Shown here one piece after another: positions 840-22,163 of a stretch of DNA of 24,134 nt (the stretch's first letter is position 1; each line of letters opens with the position of its first letter). This DNA comes from a virus: the IMG/VR virus record IMGVR_UViG_3300020583_000040, positions 1 through 24,134 of that record; one strand, given 5' to 3'. The position numbers and the translations under genes are program-made. The notes beneath the pieces are model-generated. The model made no database searches. It worked only from the letters and a program-made list of their open reading frames with translations, and was not told the origin of the DNA.

Positions 840-851
840 GCGGGCGCAGCC

Positions 852-2420: not shown

Positions 2421-2514
2421 TATGCTGGCCGCAAGAGTGAACACTCACTTACGTCTTGGCGCCGCCTCCGGCGCAAGCGGCCGCGTGAACGAACCCCTTA
2501 ACTCTTGAGGGCTT
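2421..2514 (+). promoter_or_regulatory. Intergenic regulatory region with palindrome and GC hairpin
   Basis: At 94 bases this is the longest gap in the virion block. It holds a 14-base inverted repeat, AGTGA-N4-TCACT (2436-2449), followed by a perfect 6-bp hairpin GCGCCG-CCTC-CGGCGC (2459-2474). There is no T-tract after the hairpin, so a classical intrinsic terminator is unlikely. A GAGGG ribosome site precedes the ATG at 2515. The region could carry a late promoter, an operator or an mRNA processing hairpin; the sequence does not decide between these. Confidence 0.45.
2436..2449. repeat. Palindrome AGTGA-N4-TCACT, candidate operator (copy 1)
   Basis: Perfect 5+5 inverted repeat around ACAC. 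The core GTGA-N4-TCAC recurs exactly at 12723-12734, 12786-12797 and 23134-23145, and in degenerate form at 9397-9408. This copy lies in the only sizeable gap between virion genes, which favours a DNA-binding site. The binding protein is unknown; the HTH protein encoded at 22891-23121 is a candidate. Confidence 0.4.
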
Positions 2515-3345: not shown

Positions 3346-3346
3346 G

Positions 3347-4477
3347 ATGGCCCAGCTTCCTCCGAACCCCTACGCCAGCGGCCTTCTCGTCGCCGGGACG
3401 GGGCCGAACGGCTCCTCGACCAACTGGACGACGCAATGGGACCCGGCCACGGGGACCTACGCCGCCAACTCAGGCTTCGGGCTGGCCCCCATCTACACCG
3501 CCGACCAGTTCAGCCAGCTCATGGGTAAGCTGCCGGGGAACGAGTCCTTCGGTGGGGGTGCGCCCAACCCTCTCACCTACAACCCCGACGCCTCCAAGGG
3601 GAGCGGCCCGAACCTCGCCGGTACGGTGAACGCTGCCCGCCCCAGCGCGGGCGAAAACCTCATCATCAACACCGGCCAACCGGGCGGCGCTGTCTCCCCC
3701 GGTATGCAGGATGTCTCCTACATGCTCGACCCGAAGACGGGGTATTACGTTCCGTCGAGTGCGTCGGGCACGGCGCCCTTCAAGCAAGACATCCTCGATA
3801 CGCTCGTGCCGGGGGCGATCCTTGGTACGGCGGCTGCGGGGCTTGGGATTGGTGCGGCGGGGGCGCTTGGAGCGGGTGGCGGTGCGGCTGCTGGGGAAGC
3901 AGCAGGTGGAGTGTCCTCGATCGCCGATCCCACCGCCGGTTTCATCGCCAGTGCGGAGCCCGCCGGTCAGATCGCAGGCGGCATCGACATTGCCAGCGCG
4001 GCGCCCCTTGCCGAGGCGGGCGCCGCTAGCCTACCCGCCGCCACCTTCGGCCTCGACCAAGCCGGCAACTCCTCCCTCATCAACGACATTGCGAACGCTG
4101 CGGCGGGATCGACTGCCCCCCAACTCGCCGCAGATAACGCCGCGGCGGCTGCGGCAGGCGACGCCGGCATTACTGCTGACATTGGTGCAGGCGGCAGCAG
4201 TCTCGGCGACACCCTCCAAAGCCTCGGCCAGAACAAGAGTTTGGTGAATGCTATCGGGAAACTGCTTGGGGGTGCGCTGGGCGGCGGGCAGGGGATTGGT
4301 GGGGGGAACGCGGGTGGGATAGGCAGCGCCGGCTCCGTAGGCTACACGGGCGCCGGCGGCAACGTCGGCTACGTTCCCGGCTACTCCCCCATTCAAGCCC
4401 AATCCCAGAACATGAACCCCGCGCTCGTCACCGCCCTGCGCGAGATGCTTGGACAAGGGAACCGTTCGTATGGCTAA
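3347..4477 (+). CDS. Ala/Gly-rich virion protein, putative ejection protein
   Basis: A 376-aa protein starting one base after the previous stop. Residues 1-100 are Pro/Gly/Asn-rich. Around residues 143-185 lies a long hydrophobic Ala/Gly segment (VPGAILGTAAAGLGIGAAGAL) that could insert into a membrane. The remainder is Ala-rich with Gly clusters and a Tyr/Gly-rich C-terminus. Small-residue-rich hydrophobic segments of this kind are seen in phage proteins that form the DNA-translocation channel across the cell envelope; that reading is inference. It forms a set of similar genes with those at 2515, 4470 and 5889. Confidence 0.5.
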   Translation: MAQLPPNPYASGLLVAGTGPNGSSTNWTTQWDPATGTYAANSGFGLAPIYTADQFSQLMGKLPGNESFGGGAPNPLTYNPDASKGSGPNLAGTVNAARPSAGENLIINTGQPGGAVSPGMQDVSYMLDPKTGYYVPSSASGTAPFKQDILDTLVPGAILGTAAAGLGIGAAGALGAGGGAAAGEAAGGVSSIADPTAGFIASAEPAGQIAGGIDIASAAPLAEAGAASLPAATFGLDQAGNSSLINDIANAAAGSTAPQLAADNAAAAAAGDAGITADIGAGGSSLGDTLQSLGQNKSLVNAIGKLLGGALGGGQGIGGGNAGGIGSAGSVGYTGAGGNVGYVPGYSPIQAQSQNMNPALVTALREMLGQGNRSYG

Positions 4478-5885
4478 TTTCACCGATCCCACGCAGCAAC
4501 TTGCCGAACAGAAGGAGGCCATGGGCCTGCCGGCCGATGTCCAAGGCCAGCTCAATCAGGCGATGCTGCGCCAAGCGCTCGCCCAAGCAATGCTCCAACG
4601 CGGCATGCAGATGCCGGAGGGGCAGACAATCGCTACGGGCGCCGGCGCTCCCAACCGCTATGTCAAACCGTCGGCCTTCCAATACCTCGCCAGCCTCGCC
4701 AACACAGCAGCCGGCGCAAGTGGCATCGGCAAGTCCCAATCCGACATCACCGGGATCATGCAGCAGTTCCAACAGGCCCAGCAGCAGGAAACGGCCCAGA
4801 ACCAAGCCACCGCGCTCGCCCACAACCAGATCCCCGGTGCTTCCCCCATCACCAACCCCGGCCAACTCCCGCCCAACCTCCAAGGCGGCTACTTCGCCGA
4901 ACTCTCCCAGCTCGACCAAGCTAGCCGCTTCCCGGAGAATCGCGCCCGCGCGATCAAGGAGGCCGGCGTGGCGGCGGACCTGGGTAAGGCGCAGGCGAGC
5001 GAGGCCGGCCAGACGCAGCGGGCAGTATTCGGCGCCGCCGCTCCGCGCGCAACGGTCGGGAGTGTCGTTGGGGCGTCAAACGAAACCCCTCTCGGCGGCG
5101 CAGCCCCTCTCCAAGCCCCCACCGCACCCACCCCCGGCTCCGACATCAAGCCGATCGGAATGGGCCTGTTCTACGACCACATCCGCGACAAGATCTTTAA
5201 GATCAACCCGACGACCAACCAGGTCGAGCCCGTTGCGGAGGAAACCCTCCAAGGCAAGCAAGCGCTCGCCTATCAGCAAGCCCGCCAGGAAGGCCAACTT
5301 GAAGTCGCCAAGGACAAGGGCCTCCAGCAGTCGTTCGACGAGAATCAGAACGACGCCACAATGATGCAGCATCTTCAGGATGCACAAAAACTCCTCGGCT
5401 ATGTCCATACTGGCTGGGGCACGAACGAATTCGTCAAATTCAGCGCAGCGGCGAAGCGGCTCGGCATCGACCTTGGGCAGAACCCAGCGCCCGTCGAGGC
5501 CCTGCGCGGCCTCATGACCCCCCTCATCGGCCAGACGATCCACGCCGAAGGCGTCTCCGGCCGCCTGTCGAGCGCCGTCAAAAACGCCTTCGACAACAAC
5601 CCCGGCAATGTGGATCGCCAGAAGCCCGCAATCGACGCCGCTCTCCAGCGTGCCATCGCCGACATCCAATCCCAGTTCAAGGTACACAATCAGCTCGTCG
5701 ATCAGACGGCGGGGATTCTGAAGGGGAGCGTCGCCGACCCGCGCACGGTCACGCGCTTCCGCCTCACCCCCGAAAACACCGCCCGCACTCCCTTGCCGGT
5801 CGAAAGCATCTTCGAGCCCCCGACCTACGACTTCACCAAGGCAGCGCCCTTCCCCCGCGCCGCAACCGGCACCGTGACCCACTGA
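4470..5885 (+). CDS. Large Gln/Ala-rich virion protein, putative internal/ejection protein
   Basis: A 471-aa protein. I chose ATG 4470 because it overlaps the previous stop (ATGGCTAA) and has AAGGGA about ten bases upstream; an in-frame TTG at 4449 is less likely. The N-terminal 70 residues are a Gln-rich helix (QGQLNQAMLRQALAQAMLQR). The middle is Pro/Ala-rich linker, and residues about 230-460 are mostly helical (QQARQEGQLEVAKDKG, LRGLMTPLIGQTIHAEG, RAIADIQSQFKVHNQLVDQ). No transglycosylase or protease motif is visible. Length and helical content fit an internal virion protein delivered with the genome. Confidence 0.5.
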   Translation: MANFTDPTQQLAEQKEAMGLPADVQGQLNQAMLRQALAQAMLQRGMQMPEGQTIATGAGAPNRYVKPSAFQYLASLANTAAGASGIGKSQSDITGIMQQFQQAQQQETAQNQATALAHNQIPGASPITNPGQLPPNLQGGYFAELSQLDQASRFPENRARAIKEAGVAADLGKAQASEAGQTQRAVFGAAAPRATVGSVVGASNETPLGGAAPLQAPTAPTPGSDIKPIGMGLFYDHIRDKIFKINPTTNQVEPVAEETLQGKQALAYQQARQEGQLEVAKDKGLQQSFDENQNDATMMQHLQDAQKLLGYVHTGWGTNEFVKFSAAAKRLGIDLGQNPAPVEALRGLMTPLIGQTIHAEGVSGRLSSAVKNAFDNNPGNVDRQKPAIDAALQRAIADIQSQFKVHNQLVDQTAGILKGSVADPRTVTRFRLTPENTARTPLPVESIFEPPTYDFTKAAPFPRAATGTVTH

Positions 5886-5888
5886 CCC

Positions 5889-7226
5889 ATGGGTACCATC
5901 ATCTACACCCTGAAGGACGCTTCGGGCAACCCCATCAAAGGAACCTTCCCGGACTCCTTCACCCAGGACGATGCGCAGAACTACGTCCTGAGCGGACCGG
6001 GGGCCGCGACGATCGCGCAGGGCTCGCCCAATGTCCCACTCGACAAACCCGTCAACACCGGGTTCGACATCCTGAAGTCGGCCGGTGCGGGAATCGCCAA
6101 GGCCCCCGGCGACATTGCCCGCAGTGCGCTCGATCCGCTGCTGAAGGCCGTCACCCTACGGCCTCCCCAATGGGAGATCGACGAGTTCAAGAAGGGGACC
6201 GGCGGCACGCCCCTGCCCGAGCAAGCCTACCAGTGGTTGCGCTCCCACCTGATGCCGGGGGATCTGCCGGGTGCGGGGTACGAACCCCAATCGCAGCTCG
6301 GCACCTATGCCAAGCCGATTGCGGAGGGTGCAACCACGGCCGTCATGGGTGGCGGCCCAAGCACGACCGGCGCGAAGGTGGTCAACGCCGCCCTCGGCGG
6401 CACCAGCGGTGCGATCGGCGAAGCCGGCAACCAGATGGGCCACCCGGTGCTGGGCCAGATCGCCTCGATGCTCCCCTTCCTCGCCTCCGCTGGCGTCCGA
6501 GCAGCCTCCGCCCCCGTCGGTGCTCGCAATGAGGCAGTCAACCTCATCGAGAAGCAGACCCCGCAGGCCGAGATCGACCGCGCCAGCATGCTTGAAGACG
6601 CCGCCCGGAAGCTCGGCCTGGACAAGACGATGTTCTGGCAGCATTTCGGGCCGAATGAGGCATTGCGCATCCGAGGGGAGTCAGCTGCAGCCCAGCCGAA
6701 CGCCGGTCAGATCCAAGCGAACCTGATGGCACAGCAAGGCGGCCTCCCCGGCGGCCAGAACGCCGCCGTGAACCAAGTCGCCTCGAACGCCCAGCGCGTA
6801 CTGCCCCAACTCCCCGGCAATGCAGCCAACCGCCTCCAGACGATCTCGAACCTGATGTCGAACCTGCAATCGACCGGCGAGTTGCGCAACGCGAATGTGA
6901 GCGCAACTTCCCCCGTTGCCCACGCCTCTCAAGAAGTCGGCCGCGCCGCCATGGCCATGCCGATCATCGAGAAGGCGGGGGAGGCGATCGTCGGGCCGGG
7001 GTTTGGAGAGGGCCTGAACACCGCCGTCGGCGGCCTGCATCTGGCCCGCACCCGCGCGATGGGGAACATCCTCAAGGGCGGAGAGCAAGCTGAACTCGAC
7101 CGCCTCTATGCCCAGCCCACCTTCGACGACTTCCGCAACGCGCTGCTCGTGAACCCGCGCACCCGTGCGCTCTCGGATGTGGCTCGCGCCTATCTTATGC
7201 CCCAGAACCAGGATCAATCCAAATGA
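5889..7226 (+). CDS. Putative internal virion / ejection protein
   Basis: A 445-aa protein three bases after the previous gene. The N-terminus (about residues 1-40, IIYTLKDASGNPIKGTFPDSFTQDDAQNYV) resembles the short globular head found on phage internal proteins. It is followed by an amphipathic Ala/Gly/Pro region (GFDILKSAGAGIAKAPGDIA), an Ala/Gly hydrophobic stretch (about 145-205) and Gln/Asn/Ala-rich helices to the end. No enzyme signature is seen. It is the last of four successive low-complexity proteins before the tail fibre, and its stop overlaps the fibre start. The role is inferred. Confidence 0.5.
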   Translation: MGTIIYTLKDASGNPIKGTFPDSFTQDDAQNYVLSGPGAATIAQGSPNVPLDKPVNTGFDILKSAGAGIAKAPGDIARSALDPLLKAVTLRPPQWEIDEFKKGTGGTPLPEQAYQWLRSHLMPGDLPGAGYEPQSQLGTYAKPIAEGATTAVMGGGPSTTGAKVVNAALGGTSGAIGEAGNQMGHPVLGQIASMLPFLASAGVRAASAPVGARNEAVNLIEKQTPQAEIDRASMLEDAARKLGLDKTMFWQHFGPNEALRIRGESAAAQPNAGQIQANLMAQQGGLPGGQNAAVNQVASNAQRVLPQLPGNAANRLQTISNLMSNLQSTGELRNANVSATSPVAHASQEVGRAAMAMPIIEKAGEAIVGPGFGEGLNTAVGGLHLARTRAMGNILKGGEQAELDRLYAQPTFDDFRNALLVNPRTRALSDVARAYLMPQNQDQSK

Positions 7227-8485
7227 GCTTCAACGGAACGGGCACGTTCATTCTGAACACTGGCGGATATCCTTATCAGCCTAATACATTGATCGTCAGC
7301 GCGAACGTCAACGCGCTGCTCAATGACATCGCCAACGGGCTCTCGCTCACGGTCACACGCGACGGGCAGATGTCGATGACCGGGCCGCTGCACATGGCCA
7401 ACCAGCTCATTGACGGGATCAAGAATCTCCAGTTCGGCAGCGCAACCACGAGCCCCGGCGGCGCCCAAAACGGTTTCTACCTGACAGCCGCCAACACGAT
7501 TGGGGTGGGGATCAATGGGTCTGTGGTCGGGAGCTTCACTTCGACGGGACTAAATGGCATTGCGATCGGCGCCACCACCACCTCAACGGGCGCCTTCACT
7601 ACCCTGAGTGCGAGCGGGGCCTTTACCGTTGCCGGCATTACTAACACTGGCAGCGACACCGCCACCGCTTTCATCCCTACAGGAGCAATCGTCCCCGCGA
7701 ATGGAATGTACCTCTCTGCCGCCAACACCCTCGCCTTCGCCACCAATACCACCTTCGCAGGGGAATTCAGCAGCCTTGGCAATTTTCTGATCGGCACCTC
7801 AACAGACGCCGGAGCAGGATTCCCACTTCAAGTGTTTGGCAGCACAAACGCTCCCCAACTTGTGCGCAATTGGGTCAATAGCACAGGCGCTTCCGCCCAA
7901 GCAATCTTCCGTTGCCAGACCGGAACCGCAAATTCCATCTTCAGCATGGGATTGACGGACAATGGGGCGCCGGTAGCACTGCTGGATGTGGGCGCCGGAG
8001 TAGCTTCGTTTGGGATTTCCGTCTCCGGTGCAGCCGCCATAAACATCAACACCGCAACTAAAGGTGTTCAGGTCAACGCCCCATCGAGCGGAACAGCCTT
8101 GCATATTGGATCGGCGGCAAACGCCATCGCCGCCGACGTGAATTGGGATGGGGCCGGAACCTATTATGAAGTAGGTTCACGTGATATCCCCTTCAACACC
8201 CAAGCCAGCACTTACACTCTCCTAGTGACCGATCGCGGCAAGGTCATCAACGAAACCGGCCACGCGAACGTCACCGTCCCGAACGCCGTCTTCTCCCAAG
8301 GCAATGTAGTCTCAGTGCTGAACAACAGCGCCACCGCCATGACTCTCGTCCAAGGCGCCAGCATGTCGATGATCCAGGAGGGTACAGGTGCAACCGGCAA
8401 CCGTACCATCGCAGGTAACGGGCTCGCCACGATCCTCTTCACCGGCGCCTCCCAGTGCTACGTCGGCGGTCCGGGGGTAAGCTGA
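7223..8485 (+). CDS. Tail fibre protein
   Basis: A 420-aa protein whose ATG overlaps the previous stop (ATGA). Near residues 46-66 it has the fibre-type motif TRDGQMSMTGPLHMANQLID, common at the base of phage fibres. Two copies of a beta repeat, roughly N/G-x-YL-x-AANT, are seen at residues 83-110 and 159-186, with fibre-type GTSTDAGAGFPLQV at about 191-204. The C-terminal third contains DIPFNTQASTYTLLVTDRGK and a Thr/Gly/Asn-rich beta region typical of trimeric fibre tips. It probably carries the receptor-binding function, possibly with the small protein that follows. No depolymerase or lyase motif is visible. Confidence 0.8.
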   Translation: MSFNGTGTFILNTGGYPYQPNTLIVSANVNALLNDIANGLSLTVTRDGQMSMTGPLHMANQLIDGIKNLQFGSATTSPGGAQNGFYLTAANTIGVGINGSVVGSFTSTGLNGIAIGATTTSTGAFTTLSASGAFTVAGITNTGSDTATAFIPTGAIVPANGMYLSAANTLAFATNTTFAGEFSSLGNFLIGTSTDAGAGFPLQVFGSTNAPQLVRNWVNSTGASAQAIFRCQTGTANSIFSMGLTDNGAPVALLDVGAGVASFGISVSGAAAININTATKGVQVNAPSSGTALHIGSAANAIAADVNWDGAGTYYEVGSRDIPFNTQASTYTLLVTDRGKVINETGHANVTVPNAVFSQGNVVSVLNNSATAMTLVQGASMSMIQEGTGATGNRTIAGNGLATILFTGASQCYVGGPGVS

Positions 8486-8832
8486 TGGGAGTCGCACAAC
8501 AAATCCTCGCAGCCGAAAGCGGAGTCCCCCTCGTCCAAGGCACCATTACAATCGGCACTTCGGGATCTTCGACCGGCTTTGGTGCGGGGTTTGGCTCCAA
8601 GAGTCTATCCTTGGATACTGACACCCTGACGGTACTCTCTTACAACAGCACCGGTACCATCACCAATGTCACCTTCACAAGTGCCCCGCCCACTACCGCA
8701 CCTCTCTTTGTGATTTTCGGCACCACCGCCGCTTTCATTTCCAATCATACGGCCACCAATTGGCAAGCCTCGGGGGATATCTTTAACATCGGTAGCCAGG
8801 CCGGCACGGTCAATGTGAGCATTACTCAATGA
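8485..8832 (+). CDS. Small beta-rich fibre-associated protein
   Basis: A 115-aa protein. I chose ATG 8485, which overlaps the fibre stop (TGATG); the upstream in-frame extension would run inside the fibre gene. It is rich in Ser, Thr and Gly with alternating hydrophobic residues (VQGTITIGTSGSSTGFGAGF, SYNSTGTITNVTFTS), predicting a beta sandwich without enzyme motifs. Its place next to the fibre suggests a fibre tip, chaperone or decoration protein. I do not recognise the family. Confidence 0.6.
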   Translation: MGVAQQILAAESGVPLVQGTITIGTSGSSTGFGAGFGSKSLSLDTDTLTVLSYNSTGTITNVTFTSAPPTTAPLFVIFGTTAAFISNHTATNWQASGDIFNIGSQAGTVNVSITQ

Positions 8833-9395
8833 GTGTCCTTTCGACCTTCGCCCGCTGGCTCGGCCTGTTCTTGCTTTCCCTACTGGCAACTGCGAGCGCC
8901 CCTTTCCTAGTCCTCTTCACCCTGCCCTTCTGCCGCGAGGACTTCAACAACGTCCTTCCCTCGTGGCTCCAATGGTTCAACACGCCCGACGACCGGGGCG
9001 TCGACCAGGGGATGTACGAGCACCAGGTCTACCTGATCTACCACCGCTTCGGCTGGGTCGTCAAGACGTGGTATTGGCTCGGCGTTCGCAACCAGCTTAA
9101 CGGCCTGTTCGCCGTGCTCGCGCCGACCACCGGCCCCGGTAAGTTCTCCTGGTTCACCGCGAACGCTGCTCCCTACCCCCGCACCAAATCCCCGTTCACC
9201 CCCGGCCGCTGGCTCATGACTGCCTTGATTGACGGCCGCGGCTACTTCGAGTTCGACTGGGTGTGGAAATGGTCCGCCACTCACTGCGGCATCTTCCGCG
9301 CCGGCTGGAAGCTCGAACCCCTCACCCACGCACCGGGGCCGGTGATGTTCTTGCTCCAGCTTAAGCCCTGGCTGACGATCGACTCCACCACCTGA
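8829..9395 (+). CDS. Trp-rich phage protein with N-terminal membrane segment
   Basis: A 188-aa protein starting at an ATGA overlap. Residues about 8-34 are strongly hydrophobic (FLLSLLATASAPFLVLFTLP), a transmembrane helix or uncleaved signal. The rest is soluble and unusually rich in Trp, Tyr and Phe (WLQWF, WYWLGVRNQLNGLF, FEFDWVWKW). The FTPGRW and KWSATHCGIFRAGWKLEP stretches resemble uncharacterised phage proteins found near tail-fibre and lysis genes. Function is unknown; membrane anchoring next to the lysis cassette is the only hint. Confidence 0.6.
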   Translation: MSVLSTFARWLGLFLLSLLATASAPFLVLFTLPFCREDFNNVLPSWLQWFNTPDDRGVDQGMYEHQVYLIYHRFGWVVKTWYWLGVRNQLNGLFAVLAPTTGPGKFSWFTANAAPYPRTKSPFTPGRWLMTALIDGRGYFEFDWVWKWSATHCGIFRAGWKLEPLTHAPGPVMFLLQLKPWLTIDSTT

Positions 9396-9441
9396 AGTGG
9401 GTACTTACGAACTTGACGCCCTCCCACCCACGCGCTACGCT
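9396..9441 (+). promoter_or_regulatory. Candidate promoter and operator ahead of the lysis cassette
   Basis: The gap between the membrane protein and the 52-aa gene contains TTGACG (9413-9418), a 17-base spacer and TACGCT (9436-9441): a good -35 with a weak -10. Just upstream is GTGGGTACTTAC (9397-9408), 10 of 12 bases identical to the palindrome at 12786-12797. A TTTGGAGA ribosome site (9453-9460) precedes the next ATG. This would allow separate timing of lysis genes, but the weak -10 keeps confidence low. Confidence 0.35.
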
Positions 9442-9466
9442 CATCTGACCCCTTTGGAGACTTCTG

Positions 9467-9625
9467 ATGCAACTCGAACTTTCTCCCGCGACGCTGGACG
9501 AGATCGTCCGCGCGCTTCAACTGAAAGTGATCTCAGGCTTCAACCCCGGCCATGCCCAGACGGCGATGATGGATCTTCAAACCGCGATGCAAGCCACTGT
9601 GAAGGCGCCTGGGGCAGCAGAGTGA
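9467..9625 (+). CDS. Small 52-aa protein at the head of the lysis cassette
   Basis: ATG 9467 is preceded by TTTGGAGA with good spacing, and the stop overlaps the next gene's GTG (GTGA). The product starts MQLELSPATLDEIVRALQLK and looks like two short amphipathic helices with Ala and Gln; there is no membrane segment or enzyme motif. I do not recognise it. Its position directly before the holin candidate suggests a regulator of lysis or simply an operon leader gene. Confidence 0.6.
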   Translation: MQLELSPATLDEIVRALQLKVISGFNPGHAQTAMMDLQTAMQATVKAPGAAE

Positions 9626-9825
9626 GTGATTATGATCCCGTCGCGTTCGGGCGGCTTGAGGAACGCGTTGAGGGGCTAGTCAAGGGGCAGGAGAAAGTCT
9701 CCGCTCAACTGGAAACCATCATCGACAAGATGAATCAACTTCGTGGCGCAAAATGGGCGGTGGGCTCCTTCATCGCGGTGATTGCCTCCGGCGGTACCCA
9801 CCTCCTGCACAAGTGGCTTGGATGA
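9622..9825 (+). CDS. Putative holin, XhlA-like (coiled coil plus one membrane helix)
   Basis: A 67-aa protein. I chose GTG 9622 because it overlaps the previous stop; the longer upstream frame is the shadow of the 52-aa gene. Residues 8-40 form a charged coiled coil (RLEERVEGLVKGQEKVSAQL), followed by one hydrophobic helix (about 46-62, AVGSFIAVIASGGTHLL). This is the layout of XhlA/haemolysin-type phage membrane proteins that work in lysis. It sits between the 52-aa gene and the DUF5675-like gene and is coupled to both by overlap. Holin function is inferred from topology and position. Confidence 0.65.
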   Translation: MSDYDPVAFGRLEERVEGLVKGQEKVSAQLETIIDKMNQLRGAKWAVGSFIAVIASGGTHLLHKWLG

Positions 9826-10223
9826 TCGCAAACCGTGTGGAGGTCGGACCCAATGGCAGCTTCGCCGAGATCCTCGACGATACCGGCGCTCATGTCATGT
9901 GGACTGCCGAGCACACCTACAACTCCATTCCCAAAGTACCCGCCGGAACCTACACCTGCCAACGCGGCCTCCACACCATCCCTACCGGAGAGCAATTCGA
10001 CACCTTTGAGGTTCTGGCCGTTCCCGGTCATACCGGCATCCTGTTCGTCCACCCCGGCAACCTGCCCCAGATCGACAGTGACGGTTGCTTCCTCTGCGGC
10101 AAGGCGCTCGGATTCGTGAACAACGCCCGCGCCGTCATCATGTCCCGGCCTGCGTTCGCCGCGTGGTCCGATCGAATGCGGGGGATCGACACCTTCCAGC
10201 TCACAGTGAATGACCCCTCATGA
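9822..10223 (+). CDS. DUF5675-like protein, candidate cell-wall enzyme in the lysis cassette
   Basis: A 133-aa protein starting at ATG 9822 (ATGA overlap). It matches my recollection of the DUF5675 family: PAGTYTCQRG near residue 40, then a His/Cys signature HTGILFVHPGN...DSDGC at residues 70-89. The order His77, Asp85, Gly88, Cys89 resembles the H...S-x-GC catalytic motif of YkuD L,D-transpeptidases. It occupies the slot where the endolysin is usually found, between holin and spanins, and no lysozyme, amidase or peptidase gene is present nearby. A peptidoglycan-active role is plausible but unproven; it might instead modify the wall or be structural. Confidence 0.6.
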   Translation: MIANRVEVGPNGSFAEILDDTGAHVMWTAEHTYNSIPKVPAGTYTCQRGLHTIPTGEQFDTFEVLAVPGHTGILFVHPGNLPQIDSDGCFLCGKALGFVNNARAVIMSRPAFAAWSDRMRGIDTFQLTVNDPS

Positions 10224-10474
10224 CTCTCTGGCAACGAATCGGACTTACATTTCAGGACAAGGACGGCAGTGTCGCGGTTCCCGAAGTGGTTGCGGTTGTT
10301 GCTTCTCTCAATTGCATTGTTTGCCCTTTTGTCGATTGGGTTCATCGGGGTGAGCATTACCCTGTTGGTACTGTCAGCACGTCTCTTATGGGCCTTATCC
10401 TGGCGCTGGCTACAGCACAGCGCGTCCGAGATGGGCTCTGGAAACCCGATCATGACGAGGGAGAGCACCAGTGA
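10220..10474 (+). CDS. Small membrane protein, second holin candidate
   Basis: An 84-aa protein with ATGA overlap at the start and GTGA overlap at the end. After the N-terminal TLWQRIGLTFQDKDGS come two hydrophobic stretches, about residues 18-40 (VAVPEVVAVVASLNCIVCPF) and 48-66 (VGTVSTSLMGLILALATAQ), then a charged tail. Two-helix proteins in this position can be holins or antiholins. The family is not recognised with certainty; the call rests on topology and context. Confidence 0.5.
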   Translation: MTLWQRIGLTFQDKDGSVAVPEVVAVVASLNCIVCPFVDWVHRGEHYPVGTVSTSLMGLILALATAQRVRDGLWKPDHDEGEHQ

Positions 10475-10971
10475 TCCCGATTGGCTTGTGGAAGTACGTG
10501 GGGATCATAGCCGTGATCCTGGGCCTTGGACTCTGGATCGAGAGTTTGCGGGTGACGGTGGCACGCCAACAGTTGACGATCCAGCAATACCAGAGCGCGA
10601 CCGCCTTGGCGAAGGCGGAAGTCGAAGCGACCCGAGCGGCCGACGCGAAGACGGCCAAGGAGATCAGTGATGCGAACGATGAACAAGTCCGCGAGTCTAG
10701 CAGCGCAATTACTGCTCTGCTCCTGCACAAGCCTGCCGCAGGCGTGCCCGCCCCCGCAGCTCATCCAACCGCAGCCCCCGCAATCGCTGATGCAGGAACC
10801 GGCGGACAGCCAAGTGGAGGCAATCCTCCAAGCCCTGACTGTGCGGTTGTGCCAGCTCGATCCGACGCAGCCGAGGTGCTCGGCGTTGCGATCCTCGGAT
10901 GGGAGCAGGTGAAAGCATGGAGACAGTGGCAGAGGGAGACGGCGGCTACCCCTATGATGCCGTCAAGATAG
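10471..10971 (+). CDS. Inner-membrane spanin subunit, Rz-like
   Basis: A 166-aa protein from GTG 10471, which overlaps the previous stop. Residues 6-22 are one N-terminal membrane helix (LWKYVGIIAVILGLGLW). Residues about 25-85 are a charged Ala/Gln/Glu-rich coiled coil (RQQLTIQQYQSATALAKAEV). The second half is Pro/Ala-rich, where the same DNA encodes the overlapping lipoprotein. In spanin systems the inner subunit pairs with an outer-membrane lipoprotein to fuse the two membranes at lysis, so this indicates a Gram-negative host. Sequence is not conserved in the family; topology and the nested gene make the call. Confidence 0.75.
   Translation: MIPIGLWKYVGIIAVILGLGLWIESLRVTVARQQLTIQQYQSATALAKAEVEATRAADAKTAKEISDANDEQVRESSSAITALLLHKPAAGVPAPAAHPTAAPAIADAGTGGQPSGGNPPSPDCAVVPARSDAAEVLGVAILGWEQVKAWRQWQRETAATPMMPSR
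10670..10912 (+). CDS. Outer-membrane spanin lipoprotein, Rz1-like, nested in Rz
   Basis: An 80-aa protein lying entirely inside the Rz-like gene in another frame. AAGGAG (10657-10662) is seven bases before ATG 10670, so I prefer that start over GTG 10667. The N-terminus is a lipoprotein signal: positively charged start, hydrophobic LAAQLLL, then a lipobox-like LCSC with Cys as the lipidated residue. It continues Pro/Gln-rich (PPPQLIQPQPPQ), as in known Rz1 proteins. Mature lipoprotein would sit in the outer membrane and bind Rz across the periplasm. The nested layout is the classical one for phage lambda-type spanins. Confidence 0.75.
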   Translation: MRTMNKSASLAAQLLLCSCTSLPQACPPPQLIQPQPPQSLMQEPADSQVEAILQALTVRLCQLDPTQPRCSALRSSDGSR

Positions 10972-13503: not shown

Positions 13504-14240
13504 CCGCACTCCCCCCAGCTCACCTGCGACGTTTTCAAACCCACCGGAATCCTCAAAGGCTCAGGATACGGGATCGCAACGGATTGGGCGAGGTCGACGA
13601 TGGCTCGGCGATAGTGAGGGGCTTCGGCGATGGCATACTGCCCGACGAGGGAATCGTGGACCTGGAGGAGGATTTGGGCTCCGGGGAGCTCGCCTCGCAG
13701 CCGGTCCCAGATCCGGTTGATGAGCAATCCGATGGTGGACTGGGGCACCCAGGCAGCAGCTCGATTGTAGATGTTGCCCTCGATCCGGTCGAAAATGTAC
13801 CAGCGATTTCCCCAAGCATTTCGCACGCTTCGCTCGGCGTCCACTCGTGCCTTGAGATCAAGCTGCCATTGCCGGATTCGTGGAAATCTCCCAAGGTACC
13901 ACCCTTGAATGCGCTCAACCTCCTTAACACCCAACCCAAGTCGTTTGGCAATTCCACCTGGAGTTCCAAGGTAATTCGTAGCGTGGGCGAAGGATTTGAA
14001 GGTTCGGTAGCGGGGGTGCTCGCGGGTGATGGTTGGGTCATTGTAGTACTCCTTGGCGATCTCCACGTAGGGGTTCAGGCCGGCGGCCAGCATCGCCTTC
14101 AGCTCCCCCTCCCCACTCTCCCACACCACGACCCGCAGATCGGCGCTCGACAAATCAATCTCGAACATCTCCATGCCGGGGTCGGGCAGGAAGAGTTTGC
14201 GGATGTTGGGGAGGACGAGTTTAAGTTTTGGCGTATCCAT
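13500..14240 (-). CDS. Family A DNA polymerase, C-terminal half (motifs A, B, C)
   Basis: A 246-aa ORF carrying the polymerase active site: motif A EIDLSSADLR (Asp29), motif B region RTFKSFAHATNYLG (Lys82, Tyr90) and motif C LLQVHDSLVGQ (His195, Asp196). It begins just where the N-terminal half stops: PNIRKLFLPDPG at residues 11-22 normally follows the LQNIP motif directly. I chose ATG 14240 (MDTPKLKL) because GGGAGAAGG lies just upstream, inside the end of the HNH gene, and because homology starts there. It therefore looks like an independently translated subunit that must pair with the product of 14675-16378 to make a working polymerase. Splicing is the alternative. Its stop overlaps the DUF3987-like start. 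Confidence 0.8.
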   Translation of the reverse strand: MDTPKLKLVLPNIRKLFLPDPGMEMFEIDLSSADLRVVVWESGEGELKAMLAAGLNPYVEIAKEYYNDPTITREHPRYRTFKSFAHATNYLGTPGGIAKRLGLGVKEVERIQGWYLGRFPRIRQWQLDLKARVDAERSVRNAWGNRWYIFDRIEGNIYNRAAAWVPQSTIGLLINRIWDRLRGELPGAQILLQVHDSLVGQYAIAEAPHYRRAIVDLAQSVAIPYPEPLRIPVGLKTSQVSWGECG

Positions 14241-14685
14241 TCGCCTTCTCCCATTCCCAGCGAATGTGACAAGCCTCCGCAAAGTCCCGGCCGTGGTACA
14301 AACGTAAAGTCTTTTTTCTACCGGGGAAAGCTAGCGCAGTCCAATAGATGTATTCCTTGCCGTTCTTACGGCACAAATTCCTACTAACGCCTACAACCCC
14401 AGAGGTGTTAGTTTTAAATGTGTGGCGATTGATGCAACTTTCTCTGCGATCAACCCAGCGACAATTTGCGGGTCCATATCCCAGTAAATTATCAACTCGA
14501 TCAAGTACAAAACCAGCGGGGCGCTCCCCCATATCAATCAAGAAGCGCTCAAACTTCAGCCAGTGTGCGCAGACTCGGATGCCACGGGCGCCATAGGCTT
14601 GATACTGTCGTCTATACGATACTTGGCAACGCCTTACCATAGCGTACCAACTTTGATAGGTTCGTTTGCGCCCCTCAGTCATCAT
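14221..14685 (-). CDS. HNH homing-endonuclease-like protein with AP2-type domain, inserted in the polymerase gene
   Basis: A 154-aa protein from ATG 14685, overlapping the polymerase N-terminal stop. Residues about 8-85 match a phage HNH family: TYQSWYAMVRRC, YGARGIRVCAHW, FLIDMGERPAGFVLDRVDN and GPANCRWVDRRES. Residues about 92-150 (NTSGVVGVSR, then YWTALAF and AEACHIRWEWEK) look like an AP2 DNA-binding domain. HNH-AP2 proteins are known mobile homing endonucleases. The gene is AT-richer (about 45% GC in lines I counted) than the flanking polymerase, a sign of transfer. Its end overlaps the start of the C-terminal polymerase half. Cleavage would be expected in an uninterrupted polymerase gene; whether the enzyme is active is unknown. 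Confidence 0.8.
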   Translation of the reverse strand: MMTEGRKRTYQSWYAMVRRCQVSYRRQYQAYGARGIRVCAHWLKFERFLIDMGERPAGFVLDRVDNLLGYGPANCRWVDRRESCINRHTFKTNTSGVVGVSRNLCRKNGKEYIYWTALAFPGRKKTLRLYHGRDFAEACHIRWEWEKANGYAKT

Positions 14686-16378
14686 TACCCTCGGGAATGT
14701 TTTGCAGATTTGCCCCGCTGCCAAACGCATTCTGGCTCGACGACAGCCGAAAGGTGGTCGTCCCCGCCACATTGTACGAGCACCGTAGGCGCCCGTCCAC
14801 ATCGGGCTTGCTCTCGACGAAGGTCGACTTGAAGACGCCGAGGCGGCGGATCTCCAGGATGCGGCGCACGAGCGGGCGGACGAGCGGCGTGCGGGCGGCG
14901 ATTTGCTCCAGCGCCTCTTCGTTTGTGCTCGCCTTCATCCCCTCCTTGGTGCGGATTTTGACGACCGGTAGACGGAAATCCTCGTAAAAAAGGGTGTGGA
15001 GCTGCTTGGGCGATCGTACATTGAGTTTGTGCGAGAGAACACGCTCCAACCAATCTTCACGGGTCTTGATCTCTTGGCGTAGTTCCCCCGACAATCCCTT
15101 TTTGACCTCTGCATCACAGCGTACTCCTCTCACCATCGCATCGAGTGCATGCCACCACATCTGGTGCTGGAACACGCACTGGTCGCGCAGCCCTTCGGCC
15201 TCGATCAGCGGCGCAAGCGCCTGCCCGATCTCCCACGTCGCTACGCAATCTCGACAGTTATAGCTCCATCGGCCAAGATCATCTTCTCGCTCGTCGGCTT
15301 CCTTGGACTCTTGCTTCCAGAAATGGTGATAATCGCAGTAAAGGCTGGACAGCGTATTAAGGTCTTTATCGGTCCCGGGCCAAAGGACGTGGTGTCCAAC
15401 CATCGTGTCAAATCCAAGACGAAGTTTGAATCCCCATTGGCGGAAGATGTATTGGATGTCGTAGGAGAGGTTCTGGCCGATGATGCGGGCGTTGCGGTGA
15501 AGGAGAAGGTGTCGTAGCCCACGAACAATGGAGTGCTCTTCAGATTCGCCCCAATAGTTGCTCCGGGCGCGGCTCCAGAAGGGGATACAAAGGGCATCGG
15601 TTGCGGACCAGCCAATCCCAATGCAGTCAATTTGGCCGCGACGGGTTTCGATGTCGATTGCAAACGCCTGTGGTCGCAGCTCGCACAAGTTCCTGAGGGA
15701 TGCAATGTGACCATGAACCTGCTCCAGTGTGGGGTTGAGGGTGAATCGAAAGTTGGGCTTGCGGAGCCCATTCGCTAAGACGTCACACCCACGTCTAAGG
15801 TCCCGACAAACGTATGGCCGCCAACTCCATTGACGGAGTACAGCCGCAGGGTGGTAGGTAGCAATGACTGATCGAGATGTACCATCTCCGAGAAGATCCA
15901 ATCCGAACGTAGAACCTCGCCAGTCCCCGATCCCCCAGTTCCCCGTAAGCGCCCAAAGTGCCAAGTTCCCGAATCCGATCGTAAGATCAGGCTGAACCTG
16001 GGCAAGTTCGGCTTGAAGGCATCGGAGGGAGTCGGCGACGAGGGGGTGGAACGCAAGCTGGCGTCCGCCAGTGATAGGCGCAACCCATTCCCAGCCTTCC
16101 GGGAGCTTCCTCTTGAAGCTGACGAACGCGTCGAGCTTGTTCTGGGGCGGGCGGATTTTGAGGACATTGGTGACATAGCACTCCGCCCGCTCGATCCCCG
16201 CTTCTTCGAGGAGCTTGGTGAGCTCTGCGCCGGCTGCGCCGACGAACGGTTTGCCTTGGACTTCTTCATTCGCTCCTGGTGCCTCCCCCACTATCATCAC
16301 CCGCGCCGGTATCGGCCCCCACGACCCCACCCGTTTCGGCAAGGAACTCGGTTCGGGCGGCGCGCAGGATTCGGTCAT
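14675..16378 (-). CDS. UDG-like / 3'-5' exonuclease / family A DNA polymerase, N-terminal half
   Basis: A 567-aa protein from ATG 16378; an in-frame extension to 16414 exists. Residues about 24-195 are a family-4 uracil-DNA glycosylase-like domain: VMIVGEAPGANEE, GKPFVGAAG, YVTNVLKIRPPQN and ATYHPAAVLRQ. The usual iron-sulphur Cys are mostly absent (KIRPP where KCRPP is typical, no N-terminal CxxC). Residues about 238-385 are a DnaQ-type exonuclease with DIET (Asp242, Glu244), NLSYD (Asn303, Asp307) and YNCRD (Tyr373, Asp377). The polymerase thumb/palm begins after 400, and the ORF ends just after RLSSS...LQNIPEGNDD, before motif A. The gene is broken here by the HNH insertion. It overlaps the upstream 105-aa gene by about 206 bases on the 5' side when counted to 16583, with 113 bases shared. 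Confidence 0.85.
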   Translation of the reverse strand: MTESCAPPEPSSLPKRVGSWGPIPARVMIVGEAPGANEEVQGKPFVGAAGAELTKLLEEAGIERAECYVTNVLKIRPPQNKLDAFVSFKRKLPEGWEWVAPITGGRQLAFHPLVADSLRCLQAELAQVQPDLTIGFGNLALWALTGNWGIGDWRGSTFGLDLLGDGTSRSVIATYHPAAVLRQWSWRPYVCRDLRRGCDVLANGLRKPNFRFTLNPTLEQVHGHIASLRNLCELRPQAFAIDIETRRGQIDCIGIGWSATDALCIPFWSRARSNYWGESEEHSIVRGLRHLLLHRNARIIGQNLSYDIQYIFRQWGFKLRLGFDTMVGHHVLWPGTDKDLNTLSSLYCDYHHFWKQESKEADEREDDLGRWSYNCRDCVATWEIGQALAPLIEAEGLRDQCVFQHQMWWHALDAMVRGVRCDAEVKKGLSGELRQEIKTREDWLERVLSHKLNVRSPKQLHTLFYEDFRLPVVKIRTKEGMKASTNEEALEQIAARTPLVRPLVRRILEIRRLGVFKSTFVESKPDVDGRLRCSYNVAGTTTFRLSSSQNAFGSGANLQNIPEGNDD

Positions 16379-18750: not shown

Positions 18751-19408
18751 TGAGTCTCCGGATGTTGGTAAGGCCGTTCAGGTGCTGGACCAGATCGTCG
18801 ACATCCCGCAGGAAGGTTCGAAGCTGGCTCTCGTAGGCTTTCAGGAGGTCGGCCGCCCAGGCGCGCTCCTCGCGGTAGACGAAGAGCTGCAACTCCGCCG
18901 GCAGCTCCTTGTTGTAGGACACGAAGTCGCAGAACGTCGCCCCGGTCACCAGCATGTTGTGCAGCACCTGCTTGACGTAGGCGGGCGGGACGCGATTCGC
19001 CTCAAGGTACTCGACGTGGATCGCGGGCAGCGGGCATTTGATCTCGACGATCCCGGCTCCACCCTCGACGAACCCATCCACCGAGCACCCGATTGGCAAG
19101 TCGGGCCAGTGGGCGAAGCCGGCGAGGGTGACGGTGCGCCCCGTTGCGGCCTCGTACGCAGCGCGCGCCACCGCCTCAAACTCCCGCCCCCGCTCCATGT
19201 GGGCGTTCGTGTAGTCGTCCACGACGGGCCTGCCTGTCAGCCGCTCGCACGCGAGCTGGTAGCGGTAATTGCGGCGCGTCGTGGCCTCACCCGTGCCCCG
19301 CCCCTGCGCGCACACGGCCTCGGCTTTGGAGCCCGTCACCCGGCCGGCACGGTCGGCGAACCAGCCGGGGGTGCCTTGTTCGTGGGGGCTAAGTAAGTAG
19401 TGGGACAT
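18707..19408 (-). CDS. YqaJ / lambda-exonuclease-type recombination nuclease
   Basis: A 233-aa protein from ATG 19408 (MSHYLLSP); the longer Arg-rich extension is unlikely. Visible family motifs are GTPGWFADRAGRVTGSKAEA near the N-terminus, ERGREFEAVARAAYE, SVDGFVE with the catalytic Asp, VEIKCPLP with the catalytic Glu-x-Lys, and YVKQVLHNMLVTGA. Enzymes of this type resect one strand of a DNA end, 5' to 3', leaving ssDNA for the annealase. It overlaps the ATPase start by 44 bases and the upstream 65-aa gene by 20 bases. Confidence 0.85.
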   Translation of the reverse strand: MSHYLLSPHEQGTPGWFADRAGRVTGSKAEAVCAQGRGTGEATTRRNYRYQLACERLTGRPVVDDYTNAHMERGREFEAVARAAYEAATGRTVTLAGFAHWPDLPIGCSVDGFVEGGAGIVEIKCPLPAIHVEYLEANRVPPAYVKQVLHNMLVTGATFCDFVSYNKELPAELQLFVYREERAWAADLLKAYESQLRTFLRDVDDLVQHLNGLTNIRRLNAIATSRHEDATVR

Positions 19409-19586
19409 CGGGTGCCGTCTCCTTCGTCTTCTTCGCACGCTTCGCAGCCTTGGGCTTCTTCACCGCCATGAAGCTATTGCGGGAGCCCCGCAGCGCCGCA
19501 AGCCGCACCGCAAGCTCCTCATCCGAGATCGCCTCGTCGCACTGGGCCAGTTCTGCGATCTCATCAATCATGGGGGTTGGCATCAT
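19389..19586 (-). CDS. Small protein with Lys-rich tail (65 aa)
   Basis: ATG 19586 (a second ATG follows at once) with GAAGG just upstream; the stop lies 20 bases inside the exonuclease gene. The N-terminal half is acidic and helical (MIDEIAELAQCDEAISDEEL). Residues about 42-55 are a Lys/Ala block (VKKPKAAKRAKKTK). The charge split suggests nucleic-acid or protein interaction. No family recognised. Confidence 0.5.
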   Translation of the reverse strand: MMPTPMIDEIAELAQCDEAISDEELAVRLAALRGSRNSFMAVKKPKAAKRAKKTKETAPDVPLLT

Positions 19587-19607: not shown

Positions 19608-19697
19608 TCAAGCCCAATACCCAAGCGCGATGAGGATGAGCAGCCCTGCCCCCACGAGCACCAAGAGCGGCCACAAGCCTTGCCAAAGGTTCCCCAT
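19608..19697 (-). CDS. 29-aa single-helix membrane protein
   Basis: ATG 19697 overlaps the previous stop (TGATG). After GNLWQGLW it is almost entirely hydrophobic (PLLVLVGAGLLILIALGYWA), one membrane helix. It closes the run of exported proteins. Short phage membrane proteins can act on host envelope proteins; no evidence for a specific target. Confidence 0.5.
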   Translation of the reverse strand: MGNLWQGLWPLLVLVGAGLLILIALGYWA

Positions 19698-20044
19698 CAC
19701 GATCCCTTCACCGCCGCCGCCTTGCACAGCTCGTAGAAGTGCTGCGCGAAGTCCTGGTCGATCTCAGGATGCGCGTAGATGTACCCAATGGCATCGCTCA
19801 CGAACTGCGCCTGCTCGTGTGTGCGAATCGAGCACCCATCCTTCCCATGCTCCTCGATGCATGCCTTCAGCGCCTCAGCGCTGGCGTTGCGCAGATCCTT
19901 CTCACTGATCCCCGCATCCCGCGACCGTACGAACGTCGCCAGCGCGTTGCCGATGGTGCCGCAATCGCGCTCCTCGAAGGGCATTGGGAGGTCCGCAGCG
20001 AGGGCTGCAATCGGAAACGCGAGCACGAACAACATCCTTCTCAT
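19697..20044 (-). CDS. Exported Cys-containing helical protein (115 aa)
   Basis: I chose ATG 20044 because GGAGGTGG is five bases upstream, better than the in-frame ATG at 20059. It begins with a signal peptide, MRRMLFVLAFPIAALAAD, probably cut after AALA or LAA. The mature part has four Cys and helical segments (TIGNALATFVRSRDAGISEKD, then EALKACIEEHG, FVSDAIGYIYAHPEIDQDFA and FYELC). Similar exported proteins, with RDAG-type segments and a C-terminal Cys, occur in proteobacteria and phages without known function. A periplasmic location is expected. It starts within the stop of the lipoprotein gene. Confidence 0.65.
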   Translation of the reverse strand: MRRMLFVLAFPIAALAADLPMPFEERDCGTIGNALATFVRSRDAGISEKDLRNASAEALKACIEEHGKDGCSIRTHEQAQFVSDAIGYIYAHPEIDQDFAQHFYELCKAAAVKGS

Positions 20045-20214
20045 CGAAACCACCTCCAACGGTTGGCGAACGGGATCGGCGACAGCGGCACCGTGCAGCG
20101 CGCATTGATTTGCACCCGGTGCATCTTCACCTCATACTCCGGCGTCACGAGCACGAACTGCGAGCAAGCTGCTAGGGGCAGCGACGCCAGCACCCCTAGC
20201 AACCGACGTGTCAT
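20041..20214 (-). CDS. Small lipoprotein (57 aa)
   Basis: ATG 20214 overlaps the previous stop (ATGA), and the stop overlaps the next gene. The N-terminus MTRRLLGVLASLPLAAC ends in a clear lipobox (LAAC, Cys17). The short mature part is SQFVLVTPEYEVKM and a basic, aromatic C-terminus (RWRWFR). It would be a lipid-anchored envelope protein. It is not an Rz1-type spanin by composition (not Pro-rich), and it lies in the early strand, so lysis is not the obvious role. Confidence 0.65.
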   Translation of the reverse strand: MTRRLLGVLASLPLAACSQFVLVTPEYEVKMHRVQINARCTVPLSPIPFANRWRWFR

Positions 20215-20579
20215 TGCAGGTAGAGGTCAGGCAACGTCGGCAGCGCCGGGTCGCTGAGCTGGTAGCACGTCCCTTCGGAGAGCGCACCCTCCGGCACCTG
20301 GGTGACGCCCGACGCCATTGGGTTGTACTCCCCCCACGTCCAAGTCCCCGAGGTCCCGCACTTGTAATTGGCCTCGGCGACGCCCTGCACATTCGTGATG
20401 AGGTCTATGTAGGTGCAACCGTACGGCCCGCAGCCACCTTGGAGGTTGCCAAAGAGCTCCGTCCGCTTGGTCACAGCCGCATGGATCGCCTGCTTGGCGA
20501 CGTAGTAGACCGCCGTCCCGCGCGCGAACACCGACAACGCGAACGCCGCACACACCACTCCCGCAATCAACTTCTTCAT
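20211..20579 (-). CDS. Exported four-Cys protein (122 aa)
   Basis: Signal peptide MKKLIAGVVCAAFALSVFA, then a mature part with four Cys outside the signal (GGCGPYGC at 49-54, YKCG, GTCYQL), likely two disulphides formed in the periplasm. The rest mixes one helix (YYVAKQAIHAAVTKRTELFG) with Gly/Trp/Tyr-rich loops (TSGTWTWGEYNP). Eleven bases separate it from the upstream gene. Family not recognised. Confidence 0.65.
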   Translation of the reverse strand: MKKLIAGVVCAAFALSVFARGTAVYYVAKQAIHAAVTKRTELFGNLQGGCGPYGCTYIDLITNVQGVAEANYKCGTSGTWTWGEYNPMASGVTQVPEGALSEGTCYQLSDPALPTLPDLYLQ

Positions 20580-20589
20580 TTGTCTTCTC

Positions 20590-20964
20590 CTATTGAGGAT
20601 TGATGGTCAGGCTACCCCCGACCTCGGTACACCAACACGAGCGCGTGTTCCGATGCCACATCCAGACCTCCGAATAGGCTGCAACATTCCCCTGCCCATC
20701 AGCCAAGCTCGCCGTGACGGTGAAAGTTTGATCCGGCTGATCCTGACCAGTGGTGAAGTGTCCGCTGAAGGCATGGCGCTCGCCGTTGATCTCGACGTGG
20801 GCCGTCAGGGTGTCGGCTGGCTGGCCCGTGTAGAGCCAGCACGTCGAGGCGTACGGGTAGAGGGTGAAGGTGACCTCCGGAGTCGGCAAGGTGATCGTCT
20901 CGGGTGCGATCTGGGCCTGCGCGATGCTGGAGAGGAGAAGGAAAAGTCCCGCCCAATTTTTCAT
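20590..20964 (-). CDS. Exported beta-sandwich-like protein (124 aa)
   Basis: Signal peptide MKNWAGLFLLLSSIAQA with a good cleavage site before QIAP. The mature ~107 residues are beta-rich (PEVTFTLYPY, TLTAHVEINGERHAFSGHF, QTFTVTASLADGQG), resembling an Ig- or fibronectin-type sandwich, with Cys at STCW and SCWC near the ends. No enzyme motif. It would be periplasmic or outer-face; its partner is unknown. Confidence 0.65.
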   Translation of the reverse strand: MKNWAGLFLLLSSIAQAQIAPETITLPTPEVTFTLYPYASTCWLYTGQPADTLTAHVEINGERHAFSGHFTTGQDQPDQTFTVTASLADGQGNVAAYSEVWMWHRNTRSCWCTEVGGSLTINPQ

Positions 20965-20971
20965 GTTGGCC

Positions 20972-21742
20972 TCACTTGATGAAGTAGTGGTAGTTCAGAA
21001 GCCACGTTTGGTACTTGGTGAAATCGGTGCTGTAGGCCCACGTCCCGCTGCCCCACTGGATTTGAGCGAGGCCATTGCAAACTTCGATGACCCCATCTAC
21101 TGATCCTCCGGACCCTTGACCTTGAGCTACTCCAGCAGCACCACAAACCGCAGACGATACCGGGATCGGCCAACCGGGGTAACCTGTAGGGATTCCGTTT
21201 GTAGATGTCAGGATTACTTTTTCTTCCACTTGAACTAAATTGTCGCTGACTTGATACATGCCATAGCTGTTGGTGGAATCAATATCACCGGATGGGATTT
21301 GTGTACCGCCAACTGCAATGGTGGGAGTGTAGGATGGAAGCTGATCAGGCCAAGCTATGACTTTAGTACAACTTCCGTTTATAAAAGCAAACCCTTGATA
21401 GCATCCAGTGAAATTGGTATTGTTGGGTGATCCAATCCCCCCGTAGTTCGCGGGACCACCATTGGCAGAACTGTACCACCACCCTTGATAGCCACTTCCC
21501 TGTATGCGGACACCCATAATACCGCTTGTTGCATGGGTGTCCCCAATGTAGGTGACTATGTTTGATGCTGTCCAGAACGCGACACAAGCTGCAAGAGTCA
21601 GATGGTTACCTCCTTGATTACAATTGACATCATCGGGGGAGGCTGTTACTGGATTAGCTGTCCAAGGAGGTGCTGATATACCAGCGAAGGCTGGGGTGGT
21701 CATCGCAAAGGCAAAACATAAAACCCCAATCAATCTCTTCAC
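20972..21742 (-). CDS. AT-rich exported Gly/aromatic-rich protein (256 aa), moron-like
   Basis: I chose GTG 21742, with AAGGAGA seven bases upstream; the longer frame crosses the leader. Signal peptide VKRLIGVLCFAFAMTTPAFA is cut before GISA. The mature part (~236 aa) is rich in Gly, Asn, Thr, Trp and Tyr with several Cys (VNCNQGG, AACVAFW, TGCYQGFAF, NGSCTK, AVCGAAG, IEVCNGL), suggesting a disulphide-bonded, beta-rich secreted protein. Two 60-base lines I counted have about 35-37% GC, far below the flanks. With its own leader, possible promoter and hairpin it looks like a recently acquired cargo gene. Function unknown; an envelope or exclusion role is possible. Confidence 0.65.
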   Translation of the reverse strand: MKRLIGVLCFAFAMTTPAFAGISAPPWTANPVTASPDDVNCNQGGNHLTLAACVAFWTASNIVTYIGDTHATSGIMGVRIQGSGYQGWWYSSANGGPANYGGIGSPNNTNFTGCYQGFAFINGSCTKVIAWPDQLPSYTPTIAVGGTQIPSGDIDSTNSYGMYQVSDNLVQVEEKVILTSTNGIPTGYPGWPIPVSSAVCGAAGVAQGQGSGGSVDGVIEVCNGLAQIQWGSGTWAYSTDFTKYQTWLLNYHYFIK

Positions 21743-21824: not shown

Positions 21825-22163
21825 TCAACCGCCCCGCTCGTATTCAGAAGCCATGAGGCGAAGTTCCTCAGCAATCTCTTCGGCCGCCTCCCTCAACGCT
21901 TGGGCCTTGGCTCCCGCCAGCGCGCGCTCGGCTGCTTCGGCGCAATCTTTCTCTTCAATGATGGCAGCATGAGCAGACATATCGGTGTCATGTGCCTGTC
22001 GCCTTAGCCTCTCAATCTCCGCATCCCTCTCGGCAATCATCCGCTCGTGGATCTCGCGGGGGATGGCGTCGGGGGCGTGGGCGGTAGTCGTAGCTGGCTG
22101 CATCTGCTGCACCCCGTGAAATGGACACCAAGCGCTATCGAATTTGTAGCAAGTGCAGTTCAT
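21825..22163 (-). CDS. Coiled-coil protein with N-terminal Cys/His motif (112 aa)
   Basis: ATG 22163 with GAAGGGTGAG upstream. The first 15 residues, CTCYKFDSAWCPFHG, hold three Cys and a His in a spacing that could bind zinc. Residues about 37-110 are a charged helix or coiled coil (EIHERMIAERDAEIERLRRQ, then KDCAEAAERALAGAKAQALR and EELRLMASEYE). Proteins of this style are common, uncharacterised accessory genes of phages. It may be a scaffold for protein interactions. Confidence 0.6.
   Translation of the reverse strand: MNCTCYKFDSAWCPFHGVQQMQPATTTAHAPDAIPREIHERMIAERDAEIERLRRQAHDTDMSAHAAIIEEKDCAEAAERALAGAKAQALREAAEEIAEELRLMASEYERGG

Follow-up and report, generated by a model that had tools for sequence, protein, structure and literature searches.

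The window analysed here is the whole of a 24,134-base virus record. Six consecutive reading frames, gA, gB, gC, gD, gE and gF, occupy its minus strand from position 21742 down to 19608. The nearest relative found, IMGVR_UViG_3300021178_000024 (L027), was reached via its primase. The cluster and its immediate surroundings are composed as follows, with export assigned by rule.

21825..22163, minus strand: upstream border gene, partly conserved in L027
20972..21742, minus strand: gA, GTG start, 256 aa, predicted exported protein with signal peptide MKRLIGVLCFAFAMTTPAFA; conserved in L027
20590..20964, minus strand: gB, 124 aa, predicted exported protein with signal peptide MKNWAGLFLLLSSIAQA; not conserved in L027
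20211..20579, minus strand: gC, 122 aa, predicted exported protein whose signal peptide ends ...SVFA; not conserved in L027
20041..20214, minus strand: gD, 57 aa, predicted small lipoprotein with lipobox LAAC and Ser at +2; not found in L027
19697..20044, minus strand: gE, 115 aa, predicted exported small helical protein with four Cys, PHROG 2315; conserved in L027
19608..19697, minus strand: gF, 29-aa membrane peptide with one hydrophobic helix; L027 has a soluble 61-aa ORF instead
19389..19586, minus strand: g7, small cytoplasmic protein forming the right border of the cluster; its L027 homologue is 65% identical over 48 aa
18707..19408, minus strand: YqaJ exonuclease, the first replication/recombination gene downstream of the cluster

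An initial annotation of this DNA had described five genes for exported proteins, mostly coupled by ATGA or TGATG overlaps, followed by a 29-aa membrane peptide and lying on the replication strand away from the lysis genes. The positions it gave are correct, the numbers cited being the low (stop) ends of minus-strand genes, and the layout is borne out. ATGA overlaps occur at gC/gD and gD/gE and a TGATG overlap at gE/gF, the membrane peptide being gF itself. The gaps between gA and gB (7 nt) and between gB and gC (10 nt) are short, and Shine-Dalgarno-like sequences are present along gA-gB-gC. Downstream of the cluster and in the same direction lie g7, the YqaJ exonuclease, a Sak4-like annealing protein, an A-family DNA polymerase and the primase, whilst the opposite strand carries the structural and lysis-type genes, at 108-10971. 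It is from this position beside the replication genes that we infer early expression of the cluster. No integrase was found in the window. A -35/-10-like site precedes gA at 21796-21767 in a promoter scan, which returned six promoter-like sites in the scanned region against 1.5 expected. The region before the L027 gA showed no site of this type on reading, and no convincing conserved promoter was found.

The export signals were identified with a scan that required a positive N-region, a hydrophobic stretch and either an AxA motif or a lipobox. By this rule gA, gB, gC and gE each carry a positively charged N-region, a hydrophobic stretch and an AxA-type site, and gD carries the lipobox LPLAAC followed by S, so that the signal peptide or lipobox attributed earlier to all five genes is upheld. 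The description of the products as Cys-rich holds only in moderation (7 Cys in 256 residues for gA, 3 in 124 for gB, 5 in 122 for gC, 2 in 57 for gD and 4 in 115 for gE), some of these residues lying within the signal peptides. Elsewhere among the approximately 36 genes of the window, only the o-spanin-like ORF at 10667-10912 and one membrane protein were flagged, and there is no second run of this kind. With 7 of 36 genes flagged, permutation gives a probability of about 0.0016 for five in a row. A stricter automated criterion recognizes up to three such genes in 2.3 kb in both the window and L027; in ten further phage records that served as controls, no 2.3 kb of one strand holds more than two. 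The GC3 of gB to gF (0.77-0.85) is the same as that of the other, housekeeping genes of the phage, which supports their being real coding frames; gA, at 0.46, is the exception in the cluster.

Comparison with L027 reveals which parts of the cluster are retained. The two phages are 71% identical in the primase, 73-75% in the polymerase and 67% in the exonuclease. Between its homologues of the upstream border gene and g7, L027 has three exported-type genes encoding, in order, 265 aa (with a GTG start), 181 aa and 135 aa, and then the soluble 61-aa frame in the position of gF. The first of these is a homologue of gA, at 30% identity and a local score Z of 8.7 versus shuffles, and the third a homologue of gE, at 31% identity and Z 6.8 versus shuffles. 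The similarity of the middle gene to gB and gC does not rise above that of shuffled sequences, and no gD was found in L027. Since gA and gE are homologous in the two phages and the middle gene is unlike gB or gC, the cluster combines a conserved frame, gA...gE, with exchangeable genes inside it. The initial annotation had allowed that synteny might expose the set as unrelated variable cargo. This is not so for gA and gE, which are syntenic in L027, although about half of the set, namely gB, gC, gD and gF, is indeed variable, being replaced or absent. In more distant relatives (MW202489, Mel-JY34 and relatives found through YqaJ) no exported run was seen, nor does one lie beside the exonuclease in the YqaJ-based relatives.

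The gA gene is unusual in composition. Its GC3 is low in both phages, 0.46 in the window (20972-21742) and 0.45 in L027 (L027:1837-2634), whilst the neighbouring genes mostly lie at 0.74-0.85. That this feature is common to both genes, though their proteins are only about 30% identical, suggests either that gA was repeatedly imported from a gene pool richer in AT or that some unusual constraint acts on it. The gA protein founds a new, fast-evolving family with two members. Structure prediction for gA reached a pLDDT of only 31.

For gE a known family can be named. The profile of PHROG 2315 matches gE with E=0.0014, residues 1-108 of the protein aligning to positions 1-104 of the 109-position profile, and thus over the full length and from the correct start; the L027 homologue matches the same profile at E 2.6e-6. 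By profile and motif, gE joins PHROG 2315 as a new member. The proteins of this known family are small, exported and helical and share two invariant Cys. The family is annotated in Salmonella phage Vi II-E1, where the member VIP0031 (B1GS55) resembles gE in its signal peptide, its length of about 100 aa, its helical character, the residues C28, R42 and C107, and the motif RDAGISxKD, which aligns in a profile comparison of the two proteins. C28, R42 and C107 are invariant in seven sequences from phages and genomes. An insertion and an additional pair of Cys set gE and its homologue in L027 apart from the Vi II-E1 member. An AlphaFold2 model of gE built from two sequences is helical (pLDDT 78.8). 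Its best match in BFVD is the Vi II-E1 'exported phage protein' with a probability of 1.00, but with an E of 0.06 and a TM of about 0.57. Among PDB structures gE has weak helical matches only (saposin C at Z 5.4), and the RI, HdeA and Rap1a folds are absent among the matches listed, an absence that excludes none of them.

The wider distribution of PHROG 2315 was followed with an extended profile built to include gE and the member from Vi II-E1, and the list of structure matches supplied two phages for the search, PPpW-3 of Pseudomonas and PHB04 of Bordetella. This profile finds PPpW-3 and PHB04, together with the included Vi II-E1, and none of ten other phage records. Relatives of the Vi II-E1 gene occur in 125 records of Salmonella, Escherichia and Shigella phages. 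In PPpW-3 the PHROG 2315 gene sits between genes for a ParB-like protein and a Holliday resolvase, and in PHB04 it lies within a run of small genes near the primase/helicase. In Vi II-E1, Bas78 and phage C1 it is counter-oriented between tail genes; a counter-oriented cassette within a tail module is a typical position for accessory genes. Unlike gE, the Vi II-E1 gene lies in such a cassette without gA or other exported genes adjoining. In Salmonella and E. coli siphophages the PHROG 2315 genes (L057:19409-19747; L058:3001-3294; L059:3001-3294) are located between the major tail protein and tail assembly genes. In Bas78 and C1 the gene heads a short cassette, and Bas78, as a phage of the BASEL set, offers a tractable test case. 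Of 274 genomes from the class to which Paraburkholderia dilworthii belongs, 8 contain a match to the PHROG 2315 profile, and PHROG 2315-like small exported proteins were noted in bacterial genomes (L038, L042, L050, L055, L048).

The remaining products could not be placed in this way. Neither viral contigs nor 50,697 phage records yielded a relative of gA, gB, gC or gE in direct searches; gA, gB, gC and gD have no match in PHROGs, Pfam, PADLOC or phage records, and searches of PDB sequences with these four gave nothing convincing. For gB, gC, gD and gF no convincing relative was found. Matches of gB in 252 genomes (E 0.004-0.009) were discarded as being at chance level, two of them containing stops, and a weak match of gC in a bacterial genome was set aside as the stretch there lacks a comparable exported gene. 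With a mature part of 41 residues, gD has no match among PDB sequences at E 10, such small proteins being known to diverge fast. By the E. coli rule, the Ser at +2 predicts sorting of the outer-membrane type. A role for gD as an Rz1-type o-spanin was also considered and rejected, as no i-spanin lies beside it; nor is gD needed in that capacity, because the phage has its own Rz/Rz1-like pair. This is a nested arrangement on the plus strand, a membrane-anchored frame at 10471-10971 with an embedded lipoprotein frame at 10667-10912, and it is conserved in L027. The spanin pair is followed by a metallophosphoesterase gene convergent with the primase. The earlier statement that the set could not be matched to a described system therefore fails for gE, with its family annotated in Vi II-E1, and stands for the rest; no function was found for PHROG 2315 itself. 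Of the roles that the initial annotation suggested, superinfection exclusion and defence blocking would still be plausible.

The most likely reading of the stretch is a single early accessory operon, carried by a podovirus-like phage, with products that act in the host envelope. Made early, the products of gA to gE would be exported shortly after the start of infection to the periplasm or outer membrane. There gA and gE could form a periplasmic or surface-acting core, with the lipoprotein gD and gB and gC as possible host- or competitor-specific adapters. Working from within the periplasm, like T5 Llp and Rtp45, the products might then bind a receptor or the DNA-entry path, and the infected cell, along with its debris after lysis, would become unattractive or impermeable to further phages. 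Small phage lipoproteins of the size of gD are known as exclusion factors acting from the periplasm (PMC9586334; PMC12685063). T5 Llp binds FhuA from the periplasm and alters its outer loops (PMC9586334), and Rtp45, of about 6 kDa, acts likewise on LptD (PMC12685063), whilst P22 SieA blocks DNA injection (PMC10883804). On the grounds of location and the analogy with Llp and Rtp45, superinfection exclusion is tentatively put forward as the leading role, with somewhat less than an even chance of being correct. It is consistent with the five consecutive export signals and the rarity of such runs, the translational coupling, the replication-side position and the synteny with L027, and also with the siting of PHROG 2315 genes elsewhere in early-type regions (PPpW-3, PHB04) or an accessory cassette (Vi II-E1, Bas78, C1).

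The likeness to these factors has its limits. Like T5 Llp, the T1-type Cor and Rtp45, gD is a very small lipoprotein with a lipobox and predicted sorting of the outer-membrane type, which would support at most an analogy in the manner of working. Known exclusion lipoprotein genes adjoin receptor-binding genes and are not found in replication operons (PMC9586334, PMC11990801), whereas gD lies among replication-side genes. Furthermore, gD has one internal Cys and so cannot form an intramolecular bridge like the Cys30-Cys38 bridge of Rtp45 (PMC12685063). P22 SieA and HK97 gp15 are phage-made envelope proteins which block the entry of further phages (PMC10883804), as is proposed for the cluster; they are, however, inner-membrane proteins, unlike the predicted exported products of the cluster, and sequence links to them were sought only via family libraries. 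Against exclusion, no tested function was found for any member of gA, gB, gC, gD or PHROG 2315, half of the set is not conserved, the promoter scan gave no convincing conserved promoter for early expression, and by sequence gD matched no solved structure that would link it to Llp or Rtp45. The occurrence of PHROG 2315-like proteins in some bacterial genomes also allows other roles. In a more ambitious and distinctly doubtful form of the proposal, gA and gE would be the fixed core of a new multi-protein exported early system with exchangeable specificity proteins in gB, gC and gD, shielding the envelope from rival phages or from envelope-sensing defence.

Much of the same evidence can be read otherwise. 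The localisation data would serve equally for a takeover of the host periplasm other than exclusion, in which the cluster would block or divert host envelope enzymes, stress signalling or an envelope-sensing defence. Several unrelated exported proteins with Cys and the turnover of gB to gD between relatives would suit inhibitors matched to host variants; since neither a known defence family (PADLOC) nor any other annotated family is matched, and no target can be named, this is judged somewhat unlikely. The turnover, with gB, gC, gD and gF absent or replaced in L027 and having no convincing relatives, would also be expected of a loose set of exchangeable exported genes with separate, unrelated roles, brought together only by the tendency of early operons to gather genes of this kind. 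The divergent GC3 of gA in both phages, which suggests separate acquisition, and the PHROG 2315 genes standing without an exported run in other phages point the same way. This explanation is nevertheless considered unlikely, as gA and gE stand in the same order within the same borders in both phages, despite a divergence of some 25-30% even in primase and polymerase, and what lies between them is of the exported type in both.

Two further proposals concern single products. T4 RI is a soluble periplasmic antiholin (PMC12642591), and gE, which like RI is small, periplasmic by prediction and helical, and which has four Cys, could stall lysis on the arrival of further phages with the coupled membrane peptide gF as a small partner. 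Such control of lysis timing is quite improbable: a wide distance separates gE from the lysis genes, gF has no conserved counterpart in L027, and in the phages inspected no PHROG 2315 gene adjoins a holin. In addition, gE has no PDB sequence match and RI is absent among the structural matches listed, although this absence does not amount to an exclusion. Finally, a tail-fibre-tip-like beta domain in gA, through which the exported protein would serve as a receptor decoy, is highly improbable. The protein is rich in Gly, Ser, Thr and Asn and its C-terminal motif may resemble tail-fibre ends; that part of gA has, however, no match in PHROG, Pfam, PDB or phage tblastn searches, and together with the low pLDDT of the model this leaves a tail-fibre-tip origin unsupported.

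Superinfection exclusion remains the leading proposal for the role of the operon. The exclusion factors in the papers surveyed are single proteins, encoded beside tail genes or expressed by prophages, and no description of a multi-gene exported operon heading replication genes, with a fixed frame and an exchangeable middle, was found in the open-licence papers searched. If the reading is true, such an operon would make envelope control an early, modular function of a phage in whose window no integrase was found. The cluster also provides a testable context for PHROG 2315, an uncharacterised family in phages of Salmonella, E. coli, Pseudomonas and Bordetella.

Two features lie outside the cluster. 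The DNA polymerase gene is split by about 440 bp (14226-14680, minus strand) which are missing from L027, where the polymerase matches are continuous from 7612 to 10005 with a 15-nt gap. The insert overlaps a basic ORF of 193 aa at 14221-14802; neither has an Rfam or Pfam match, and the arrangement suggests a putative intron or endonuclease insertion in the polymerase domain. At the contig end, 23911-24121 is a low-complexity tandem array of CCGCCG and 21-bp units in about 10 copies, which may be real or an artefact of the assembly end.
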